From assembly GCA_021780415.1 (NCBI GenBank), contig JAJXYW010000153.1, positions 1 to 11,097 on the forward strand: a stretch of 11,097 nucleotides of DNA, read 5' to 3'. The stretch comes from Acidobacteriota bacterium. Its GTDB lineage: Bacteria > Acidobacteriota > Terriglobia > Terriglobales > Acidobacteriaceae. The notes under the pieces were generated by a model. That model saw nothing but the letters and a program-made list of their open reading frames with translations, made no database searches and had not been told where the DNA came from. How positions within the stretch are numbered: position 1 is the first letter of the stretch; the number at the start of each line of letters is the position of its first letter. The translations under genes were made by a program, and so were the position numbers. Below, in pieces: positions 4,927 through 8,813 of the stretch.

Positions 4927-6177
<1,251 letters not shown>

Positions 6178-6198
6178 GAGTACCTGGGTAGTTTCCAT

Positions 6199-6389
6199 AG
6201 ATTTTTGCGGGATGGGATGTTGCGAGGGGGGTGGTGCGGAATCACGCTGAAACGGGGGGAGTTCCGAAAGCGGAGTTGCAGGAAAGATCGAGCGGAGGGA
6301 TCTACAGAAATGGGAGTGATGAAGCGTGTTGCAGAATGAGATGCTTGATTTTGATAAAGGGTAGCAGAACAGGGTGAGGAAAAGTAGTG
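6199..6389 (-). promoter_or_regulatory. C-rich, G-poor rho leader (candidate rut/autoregulatory region)
   Basis: Counted by hand, the minus strand of these 191 bases holds 78 C and 20 G, nearly 4:1, with many pyrimidine runs (for example CCACCCCCCTCGC) and little scope for stable hairpins. A 60-base sample inside rho (5401-5460) is balanced (17 G to 18 C), so the bias is local. C-over-G bubbles without structure are the hallmark of Rho loading sites, and rho genes are known to be controlled by attenuation in their own leader. The function here is inferred. I found no convincing promoter inside this stretch. Confidence 0.5.
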
Positions 6390-6411
6390 TCGCGCGGCCG
6401 GAACCGCGCGA
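6390..6411 (-). terminator. Hairpin downstream of rpoZ (probable terminator or attenuator before rho)
   Basis: An 8-bp inverted repeat, TCGCGCGG and CCGCGCGA, closes a 6-nt loop starting 9 bases after the rpoZ stop codon. On the minus strand it is followed by CACTACTTTTCC, an imperfect T-tract. It could end the rpoZ transcript or partly attenuate read-through into rho. Confidence 0.65.
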
Positions 6412-6420
6412 CAAAGGATT

Positions 6421-6642
6421 TTAGGCTGCGCGACGCTCGGTGGGGGAAACACCTTCGAGGCCGGCTTCAGCGGAGAGATCCATGGGAATGGTGTCCTTGA
6501 AGCGGTCGAGGACCTCATTGGTGGTGTCCTGCAGGCGGGTGTTCGGCTTGTGGAGCTTGCGGGTGGCCTTGGAGGCAAGTTGACAGAGCTTGTAGCGGTT
6601 ATTCACGTGCGTAAGAGCACCAAAGATAAGATCTGAGCGCAT
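6421..6642 (-). CDS. rpoZ: DNA-directed RNA polymerase omega subunit
   Basis: A 73-residue protein. The diagnostic block NRYKLCQLASKATRKLHK (about residues 15-32) matches the omega motif that begins NRF-L and runs through the A-R-A-R helix, where omega wraps the beta-prime C-terminus to aid polymerase assembly and stability. The following TTNEVLDRFKDTIP corresponds to the second omega helix. The C-terminus (EGVSPTERRAA) is short, as in many non-proteobacterial omegas. The frame is open back to 6762, but the ATG at 6642 is clearly right: AGGAGA lies 8 nt upstream and the protein begins in the usual place. It lies just upstream of rho and about 180 bases downstream of a structured-RNA candidate on the same strand, from whose promoter it may also be read. 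Confidence 0.93.
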   Translation of the reverse strand: MRSDLIFGALTHVNNRYKLCQLASKATRKLHKPNTRLQDTTNEVLDRFKDTIPMDLSAEAGLEGVSPTERRAA

Positions 6643-6819
6643 GGAAGATTCTCCTGGGATGCCGAGGCTCCGGGCGTCATCGGTGTAACGCCTATGAGTC
6701 GGATGCTTCGTGGCTTGCTGTGGCTTGGAGGTGATAACAAGCCGGTTACTGGTTAGACGCATTCGCGGCAGCGAAGATGCGTCGGGAAATGTCTTGCAGG
6801 GGACAACCTGCCATAAGTT
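6643..6819 (-). other. Gap between the structured-RNA candidate and rpoZ; two small hairpins, no gene
   Basis: No convincing coding frame. Two inverted repeats are visible: GACGCAT (6756-6762) with ATGCGTC (6777-6783), which can extend by three further pairs across a 2-nt bulge, and GCAGG (6796-6800) with CCTGC (6807-6811). Neither has a T-run on the minus strand, so they are not clear intrinsic terminators. They could mark the 3' end of the RNA or belong to a long rpoZ leader. The only other clear element is the rpoZ ribosome binding site near 6651-6656. Confidence 0.5.
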
Positions 6820-7014
6820 GCAGCCAGGTTAGGGCTTGGGCTGCCATCGCGCAAACGACTCCCAACCTTTTGAGGAGGGAAAACCCTCAAAGTGGCGGAG
6901 GGAACGACATTTGGGAGGAATGTCCGGATCGACGCCGGCTGAACCGGTGATCATCGAGGCCGGAAGGAACGTTCGGGGTCTCGATGGGAACAGCTTGGGC
7001 CCTAAATACCTGCT
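6820..7014 (-). ncRNA. Structured RNA candidate with its own promoter, class unassigned (6S-like size)
   Basis: About 195 nt with no convincing coding frame. The two ends pair in a long closing stem: 7012-7008 with 6829-6825 (5 bp), 7004-6999 with 6835-6830 (6 bp), a symmetrical internal loop with CCAA on both sides (6998-6995 and 6839-6836), 6994-6991 with 6843-6840 (4 bp) and 6987-6982 with 6849-6844 (6 bp); 21 pairs in all. Inside are hairpins 6960-6964 with 6923-6927 (enclosing UCGA and CCGG pairs), 6919-6924 with 6906-6911, and 6885-6891 with 6869-6875. A sigma-70 promoter places the RNA 5' end at 7013-7014, exactly at the foot of the stem. Size, own promoter and closed ends suit 6S RNA, but the interior is three hairpins rather than one rod, so I do not assign the family. 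It could instead be a long rpoZ leader. Confidence 0.6.
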
Positions 7015-7020
7015 TCTTGA

Positions 7021-7049
7021 ACCATACCGTGTGCAGAGGCGCTGGTCAA
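7021..7049 (-). promoter_or_regulatory. Sigma-70-type promoter for the structured RNA (and possibly rpoZ)
   Basis: On the minus strand a -35 TTGACC (7049-7044) and a -10 TATGGT (7026-7021) are separated by exactly 17 nt. The expected start, 6-7 nt after the -10, is 7013-7014, where the closing stem of the downstream RNA begins. This is the best promoter match I found in the window. It lies in the 112-base space after the comM stop codon. Confidence 0.7.
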
Positions 7050-7126
7050 TCCTTTTTTTGGGACACGGCGGAAGGTGAATACTGAAAATGGGATATTGAG
7101 TTGGGGCGGTGGAGTCGGGGGTGGGC

Positions 7127-8719
7127 TCAGGACCAATAGCTGCGGTCGAGGGTGCGGTATTGGATGGCCTCTGCGATGTGGGGAACGGTGATGGAGGGTG
7201 CGGCTTCGAGGTCGGCGATGGTGCGGGCGACCTTGAGGATGCGGTCGTGGGCGCGGGCGCTGAGACCCTGCTGCAGCATGGCGCGCTCGAGCAGACGCTC
7301 GGCGTCGGAGGAGAGCTCACAGAAGGTGCGGATCTGCTGGGTGGACATTTGAGCGTTGGCAAAGATGGCGCGGCTGGCGGCGCGGGAGGAGCCCTTGGTA
7401 CGGACGGGGGTTTCGAGGAAGCGGGCGTGCTGGATCTCGCGGGCGGCGAGGACGCGGGCGCGGATTTCGGCGGAGCCCTCGGCGGCGGCGTTGCTGCGGA
7501 GCTCTTTGTACTGGACGGCGGGGACTTCGATGTGGATGTCGATGCGGTCGAGGAGCGGGCCACTGACTTTGCTGACGTAGCGCTGGATCATGGGCGGTGT
7601 GCACATGCACTCGCGGGACTTGTCGTTGAAGTAGCCGCAGGGGCAGGGATTCATGGCGGCGGCGAGCATGAAGCGGGCGGGAAAGCTGAGGGACATGGCA
7701 GCGCGAGAGATGGTGACGGTGCCGTCTTCGAGGGGCTGGCGGAGGACTTCGAGGACGTTGCGAGGGAACTCGGGGAGTTCGTCGAGGAAGAGAAGGCCGT
7801 TGTGGGCGAGAGAGACTTCGCCGGGACGGGGAATCATGCCGCCACCGATGAGGCCGGCGTCGGAGACGGTGTGGTGGGGGGAGCGGAAGGGACGGTGAGT
7901 GACGAGACCTTCGTCGCGGTTGAGGATGCCGGCGACGGAGTGGATCTTGGTAGTCTCGAGGGCCTCTTCAAATCGCAGAGCCGTGAGGATTGAGGGGAGG
8001 CGCTTGGCGAGCATGGTCTTGCCGGAGCCGGGCGGGCCGATCATGAGAATGTTGTGGCCACCGGCGGCGGCGACTTCGAGAGCTCGTTTGGCTACTTGCT
8101 GGCCGCGGACGTCGCGGAAGTCGGCTTGATATTCGATGGCCTCGTTGAGCAGGGTGGTGCTGTCGACGACGAGAGGCTGGGCGAAGATGGAGCCGTTGGC
8201 GGCGGAGTTGAGGAGTTCGCGGACTTCGAGAAGTGAGGTGACCGGATAGACGTTGACGCCGGAGACGACGGCGGCCTCGCGGGCGTTGGCGGCGGGGATG
8301 AGGAGATTTTTGATGCCAGCGGTGCGGGCGGCGATGGCGATGGGCAACATGCCCTGGACGGCACGGAGGGAGCCGTCGAGGCCGAGCTCGCCGACGAGAA
8401 CGAAGTCGGAGATGTCTTTGATGGAGAGCGCGCCATAGGCTCCGAGGATTCCGATGGCGATGGGGAGATCGAAGCCGGAGCCCTCTTTTTTGAGGTCGGC
8501 GGGGGCGAGGTTGATGGTGATGCGGGTGGGAGGGAGATCGAAGCCGGAGTTCTTGATGGCGGAGCGGACGCGGTCGCGTGATTCGCGGACTGCCGCGTCG
8601 GGGAGGCCGACCGTGGCGAAGGTCTCTTCCTGGGTTTTGATGCCGGAGAAGTCGACCTCTACGTCGATGATGTGAGCGTCGATGCCGTAGACGGCCGCAC
8701 TGCGAGCTTTGAAGAGCAT
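7127..8719 (-). CDS. comM: ComM/YifB-family Mg-chelatase-like AAA+ ATPase
   Basis: A 530-residue protein (E. coli YifB about 506). ComM is a hexameric helicase that drives branch migration during integration of transformed DNA in naturally competent species; the family is also widespread in species not known to be competent. Domains in order: an N-terminal Lon-protease-like fold (about 1-170, with [24 protein letters not shown] and [11 protein letters not shown]), the AAA+ ChlI domain with Walker A GPPGSGKT (228-235), [17 protein letters not shown] (278-294), Walker B LLFLDE (309-314), a four-Cys knuckle between 359 and 373 (CPC...CMC), an arginine finger in LLDRID (389-394), and the Mg-chelatase C-terminal lid (about 430-530, ending [20 protein letters not shown]). 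The frame runs to a GTG at 8761; I chose ATG 8719 because [13 protein letters not shown] matches the family start and AAGGA lies 10 nt upstream. A TACACT at 8757-8752 may be its -10. It stands alone, divergent from sdaA. Confidence 0.95.
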
Positions 8720-8813
8720 GCCTGGTAAGTCCTTGAGGCCGTAATGGGCCAAGTGTAGCACTCAGGCAGGAGGTTCGTATGTGCTGCGGATGCTCTCGAT
8801 GGGAGCGGACGTC

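Follow-up and report, generated by a model that had tools for sequence, protein, structure and literature searches.

The region upstream of the rpoZ-like gene in the window (the whole 11,097-nt stretch of Acidobacteriaceae DNA that was analysed) probably, at a rough probability of 0.55, subjects rpoZ to control by two promoters; the segment between them would make up the upstream half of this control region and belong to a long leader as its distal portion. Comparison of related loci shows conservation of both promoters (P1 and P2), of their spacing and of the folds in the leader. In the proposed mechanism, the housekeeping-type P1 would start a transcript near position 7014 that reads across ~230 nt of folded, rapidly evolving sequence before it enters rpoZ, which makes its leader about 370 nt long, and the ECF-type P2 would start a second message with a short leader. 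Both messages would share two hairpins, HP-I and HP-II, 5′ of the ribosome site, which probably tune the translation of omega. We infer that P1 transcripts reach rpoZ and that the folds take part in regulation.

The genes concerned all lie on the minus strand, in the order comM-like gene, reported segment, rpoZ-like gene and then rho:
7127 to 8761, minus strand: comM-like gene (Mg chelatase/ComM family), the upstream neighbour (Pfam Mg_chelatase, 1.5e-98)
6650 to 6655, minus strand: ribosome binding site AGGAGA of rpoZ, read from the sequence and invariant across 10 aligned leaders
6421 to 6642, minus strand: rpoZ-like gene, 73 aa (TIGR00690, PDB profile search)
6388 to 6413, minus strand: terminator-like hairpin 3′ of rpoZ
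4927 to 6186, minus strand: rho (Pfam Rho_RNA_bind, 9.8e-35)
Judged by profile comparison, the identity of 6421-6642 as rpoZ is weak but specific. TIGR00690 (rpoZ) was the sole NCBIfam model listed, at a sub-threshold E of 0.079, and a six-sequence profile found an omega subunit as its best PDB match (E 0.58); no Pfam family matched the gene at E≤0.001. The hairpin that follows rpoZ (6413-6388) has 11 bp and a T-rich tail, so that rho is probably a separate unit, and the rho part of the rpoZ-rho link drawn by an earlier, sequence-only reading is thereby weak.

For comparison, 179 loci with an rpoZ start were reduced to 132 distinct ones by dropping those identical in the last 350 nt and stretches shorter than 300 nt; 103 comM-rpoZ gaps were likewise reduced to 75. 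Lineage sets were picked by similarity: F (14 sequences, with Occallatibacter and Terracidiphilus among them), A (11, from Edaphobacter and its relatives), C (5-6), B (5) and D (4, including the window). The lineage tests drew on part of the 116 segments with P1; singletons, members of small groups and some of the distant F-like segments were left out. An omega query found no match in 22 genomes of other families, a result that has no bearing on spread beyond the family. Three loci of relatives (L039, L040 and L041) carry a further rpoZ-like gene, 49-62% identical, and a search for the promoter patterns turned up neither P1 nor P2 for it.

P1 is preceded by two conserved elements:
7021 to 7049, minus strand: P1, sigma-70-type promoter, TTGACC (7049-7044), 17 nt, TATGGT (7026-7021)
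7051 to 7060, minus strand: A-rich tract 5′ of the -35 element, AAAA.AAg conserved in 69 loci; possible proximal UP element
7078 to 7095, minus strand: box TATCCCATTTTCAGTATT upstream of P1, which may serve as a distal UP element or be bound by a regulator; columns T.C..ttt..g.A are conserved across 69 aligned loci
The promoter had been proposed from the sequence alone, and it proved real: it is the only sigma-70-like site found within 6000-7200 (0.3 expected) and is kept across the family. As defined by the pattern TTGAC-17/18-TAnnnT at 280-560 nt upstream of rpoZ, P1 is present in 103 of the 132 distinct loci against 0.7 expected from a first-order Markov control, and the pattern occurs on the opposite strand in two; a recognisable P1 is absent from about 29. 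The distance from P1 to the ATG of rpoZ is tight (median 411, interquartile range 388-430), and that from comM to P1 is variable (11 to 903 in 72 loci).

A second promoter lies closer to the gene:
6753 to 6780, minus strand: P2, ECF-sigma-type promoter GCATC-16-CGTCTAA, found by the CGTC[TC]AA pattern; sigma class predicted
Of the 132 loci, 103 carry CGTC[TC]AA upstream of rpoZ, at a distance of 40-260 nt (median 117), versus 2.2 expected from the Markov control, and about 29 loci have no recognisable element. By eye, the CGTC-type -10 has an ECF-like (AAC/ATC-like) -35 placed 16-17 nt upstream, and from the form of these two elements P2 would belong to the ECF-sigma promoters. P1 and P2 are both present in 84 of the 132 loci, where P2 then stands between the segment and rpoZ. 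P2 (6780-6753) and the structured rpoZ leader downstream of it (6743-6663) were both overlooked in the sequence-only reading.

The short leader consists of two hairpins:
6712 to 6743, minus strand: leader hairpin HP-I, GGCTTGTT/AGCAAGCC
6663 to 6710, minus strand: leader hairpin HP-II, CGAAGCATCCG..GGCG..CGCCCGGAGCCTCG, directly 5′ of the ribosome site (covariation, model R2)
This stretch between P2 and the start codon was originally chosen as a control, and proved structured. When RNAalifold energies of the lineage alignments were compared with those of column shuffles, which preserve neither dinucleotides nor phylogeny, the leader gave z of -8.5 in the window's clade (B+D), -5.5 in A, -5.3 in F and -2.3 in C; no other fold signal of the window's lineage is as strong, which does not hold for A or F. 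Among ten window-clade sequences 94% of cells are paired. Covariation in this alignment appears modest: two-sided changes fall in 2 of 21 pairs, both in HP-II, a count that 112 of 500 shuffles reach, whereas 2 of 500 reach the six two-sided cells, and 2 of 500 the covariation score. Across the 132 loci, the 70-nt stretch with most structure spans -80 to -11, where z averages -0.75±0.14 over clusters.

Three models were made: R1 from lineage F, R3 from lineage A, and R2 from 10 training loci of the rpoZ leader. At E≤1 in 362 kb, R2 recovered its training loci and gave six further matches (3.7e-5 to 0.35), all at the rpoZ leader; these come from L032, L074, L031, L029, L053 and L161, and represent five distinct sequences, as L032 equals L074 in score. 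Among the best 136-150 candidates per genome in 28 genomes of the genus, R2 matched strongly in 11, each time beside rpoZ, with ten of these being training genomes; ten weak matches (0.13-0.78) lay elsewhere.

The RNA between the promoters is more variable:
6783 to 7014, minus strand: segment from P1 to P2, predicted to form a structured RNA (either the distal leader or a small RNA), with its 5′ end placed from P1 by prediction
Against the same kind of column shuffles, alignment-fold z of the segment was -6.9 in F (14 sequences), -6.2 in A (11), -3.3 in C (6), -2.9 in B (5), -2.6 in D (4, with the window) and -2.0 in B+D (9), compared with control values for the 200 nt upstream of P1 of 0.1, -1.1, -2.7, 0.0, +0.9 and -0.5, respectively. 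None of 100 shuffles was as good in A or F, and 3 of 100 were in the window's clade B+D; in lineage C neither the leader nor the P1-P2 segment clearly exceeds the upstream control (-2.7). Alignment-level structure is seen downstream of P1 in three other lineages (z -3 to -7); for the window's own lineage the signal is weak, at z -2 to -3. In lineage A, 96% of cells are paired, and four pairs (five cells) carry two-sided changes versus 1.0 in shuffles, which none of 500 reached. In lineage F, 86% of cells are paired versus 34-42% when the structure is slid; its seven two-sided cells, reached by 129 of 500 shuffles, are not distinguishable from them. Single-sequence folding is barely beyond control, with mean z of -1.0 for P1-P2 (54 sequences), -0.9 for the leader (53) and -0.5 upstream (46). 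As seen by eye (and counted in F), a 5′ strand of the segment (GUCGCAG in A, GAUUGC in F) could pair either with a near or with a far partner, which would make a conformational switch conceivable.

At E≤1 in 362 kb, R3 matched eight of its own loci and, at the matching place, seven loci of other lineages (E 5e-6 to 0.13), with one opposite-strand match (L030, E 0.84). Among the best 136-150 candidates per genome in 19 genomes, its strong matches (E<1e-6), found in five, were all beside rpoZ, and seven further weak ones (0.039-0.79) were elsewhere; in G241 the rpoZ-side match (E 0.023) was weaker than one elsewhere (0.009). R1 at E≤1 matched lineage F only (11 training loci, three others and two antisense), and all six of its matches in 17 genomes, again among the best 136-150 candidates per genome, were beside rpoZ. 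For all three models, strong matches among those candidates were thus found only beside rpoZ, as would be expected of a cis-acting leader (6 of 17 genomes for R1, 5 of 19 for R3 and 11 of 28 for R2), mostly in the genomes that had supplied the models. Compensatory changes were also found, in the leader cells (2 of 500 shuffles) and in the lineage-A segment (0 of 500). A single RNA model for all lineages was rejected, as R1 is limited to lineage F and R3 reaches related lineages, not the window. Because R1 and R3 both miss the window, a P1-P2 RNA in its clade stands on weak evidence.

The sequence-only reading had found no credible coding frame in the segment, and this was borne out: by eye, no frame is conserved in length as well as peptide across 34 sequences from four lineages, and a small reading frame between P1 and P2 was rejected. 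Short TTG-start frames do occur at like places in three of four window-clade sequences (20-34 aa) and in 7 of 14 from lineage F (18-33 aa). A string resembling a ribosome site accompanies the TTG-start frames, which makes them candidates for a leader peptide. We also rejected a C-rich stretch for Rho loading, as an excess of C over G is present in all four loci of the window's clade but extends to just 33 of 116 in total.

Within the window the segment contains the following pairings:
6825 to 7012, minus strand: closing stem proposed by the sequence-only reading, 7012-6982 with 6849-6825; present in the window's fold, with poor support from relatives
6952 to 6986, minus strand: local hairpin CATCGAG/CTCGATG; 67% of cells paired, two-sided changes in 2 of 7 pairs, nine sequences
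6905 to 6925, minus strand: hairpin GGACAT/ATGTCG with the pyrimidine-rich loop TCCTCCC; 78% of cells paired, two-sided changes in 3 of 5 pairs, nine sequences
The closing stem is present in the window's own fold and finds poor support among the relatives. The minimum-energy fold of the window (-74 kcal/mol; z -2.96, reached by 3 of 200 shuffles) contains the interrupted 5′/3′ pairing GGGC-CCAA-GCUG/CAGC-CCAA-GCCC (7003-6991 with 6843-6831). When the first 40 nt were paired with about +145 to +219, z was -2.2 for the window and +0.1, -0.5 and -0.2 for its nearest relatives L003, L004 and L008, with a mean of +0.07 over 48 sequences including the window, 5 of which fell below -1.64. In the nine window-clade sequences (lineages B+D), 64% of 180 cells pair versus 27-43% when slid, with the structure taken from one of the nine. 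The compensatory changes that the stem was predicted to show do exist, in 6 of 20 pairs, but shuffles do as well: this count is reached by 125 of 500, and the covariation score and two-sided counts by 42 to 125. The closing stem is, as a conserved feature, unproven and poorly supported by the alignments; it may still hold in the window's clade, where misalignment on the 3′ side may mask part of it. The two local hairpins, one of which competes with part of the closing stem, jointly pair in 72% of 100 cells in the same nine sequences and have eight two-sided cells versus 3.7 in shuffles, which 1 of 500 reached. The loop TCCTCCC resembles an anti-Shine-Dalgarno seed. Pairing of this loop with the ribosome site of rpoZ was set aside, as the energies were computed without a control.

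It is possible, if somewhat unlikely, that the product of P1 is a small RNA in its own right, ~220-240 nt long and terminating shortly ahead of P2, with rpoZ transcribed only from P2; such an RNA could act on other mRNAs via the pyrimidine-rich loop, or bind a protein. In 84 of the 132 loci P2 separates the segment from rpoZ, which is consistent with this, as are the UP-like elements of P1 (UP elements are used by stable RNA genes) and the loop, which is pyrimidine-rich in all nine sequences of the window's alignment; CCTCC overall, however, is hardly enriched (27 of 116 versus 21.8 expected). A hairpin with a T-run precedes P2 in 16 of 93 loci (6 of 81 for the control stretch) and does so directly in 6 of 14 lineage-F segments, which favours a separate RNA in lineage F, where we consider it as likely as read-through. 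It is absent from the window, from lineage A (0 of 11) and from lineage B (0 of 5), and a general intrinsic terminator before P2 was rejected. Read-through into rpoZ is favoured because there is no such general terminator, because no frame is kept in both length and peptide, and because strong RNA matches were seen only beside rpoZ among the best 136-150 candidates per genome. It is also conceivable, at still longer odds, that function is confined to the two promoters and the short leader, so that the P1-P2 stretch is unconstrained and the window's fold is due to chance. The cluster-averaged local fold z along the stretch (-0.10 to -0.63, 132 loci), the end pairing of the relatives, which is not above chance, and the modest alignment score of the window's clade (z -2.0, 3 of 100 shuffles) would agree with that. 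Such a stretch would not readily explain the z of -6.2 and -6.9 in lineages A and F (0 of 100 shuffles), the four two-sided pairs of lineage A (1.0 expected; 0 of 500), the recovery by R3 of the same place in seven loci outside its training set, or the two-sided cells of the window's two local hairpins (1 of 500 shuffles).

That the segment is 6S RNA, as a primary or second copy, is extremely improbable. The sequence-only reading had raised 6S on account of size and closed ends, and the window's segment does resemble it in size and in a stable closed fold, with the closing stem paired in 64% of cells among nine near relatives. In contrast to 6S RNA (RF00013), it has no covariance-model match in 6780-7120 even at E≤10 and a poorly supported closing stem, end pairing over 48 sequences being no better than chance. 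The bona fide 6S RNA of the window's genome is on another contig (G000:C18:72592-72779, 60 bits, E 2.8e-11), and a search of 28 genomes of the genus found one copy each in 25, the window's genome among them and 24 over the cut-off, always elsewhere; we therefore rejected the identity. The genome's 6S gene (L001:1501-1688) is flanked by thioredoxin-like and lgt-like genes, named by eye from their open reading frames. The Rfam check suggested with that reading, covering 6S and the Acido motifs, gave no match: at the gathering score no family matches anywhere in the window, and at E≤10 the sole match in 6780-7120 is WT1-AS_2, a lncRNA family hit on the plus strand, which we regard as chance (13.3 bits versus a gathering score of 45). 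Acido-1 (RF01686) and Acido-Lenti-1 (RF01687), described in PMC2864571 as acidobacterial RNAs without a clear gene link, have no covariance-model match in the window and were rejected. In Actinobacteria, Ms1 RNA is likewise linked to RNA polymerase and was tracked down through gene synteny; its link is binding of the RNA polymerase core, that of our segment is gene position. Of the options offered by the sequence-only reading, an rpoZ leader or lineage-specific RNA fits best, given the conserved P1-rpoZ distance, the alignment folds and the matches beside rpoZ.

Omega forms part of a ppGpp site, and to our knowledge control of its amount in bacteria has been little studied. Two promoters and a conserved leader fold, shared across the family, provide a concrete and testable point at which omega could be controlled. 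As a tentative and rather unlikely extension, an undescribed Acidobacteriaceae RNA family might set the omega level, with a long folded leader from the housekeeping promoter, a short one from the stress-type promoter, and shared hairpins that sense RNA polymerase or a stress signal. Neither the rpoZ leader nor the P1-P2 RNA matched Rfam 15, and the matches listed in a full-text literature search, as far as their text extends, include no structured rpoZ leader in Acidobacteria. The icd-II and gltD motifs, which PMC8632094 presents as structured cis-regulatory leaders found by comparative genomics, share with the rpoZ leader a conserved fold directly 5′ of one gene, beside a promoter and a ribosome site. 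In our case, by contrast, the fold precedes rpoZ and is reached from two promoters, and nothing points to a ligand or regulator.

Searched with the P2-type pattern, the window's genome gave three matches, each ahead of a gene, and the reversed pattern gave two; the window's own P2 misses the first base of the pattern used for genome searches. The three lie 94-170 nt before TonB-like, FtsH and RpoD genes (L218, L219 and L220, around position 1501), the last being the main sigma factor. The sites ahead of rpoD and ftsH suggest that parts of RNA polymerase may come under shared stress control, and, taken by sequence, P2-like sites point to a possible ECF stress regulon; if true, the joint occurrence of such sites ahead of rpoD, ftsH and rpoZ within a single genome would place omega and the main sigma factor in one envelope-stress regulon. 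The pattern alone is not specific, since it had 19 matches in eight other genomes versus 28 for the control. Those matches include two before ftsH, two before rpoZ, and one before a frame that by eye is Hfq-like (L238).
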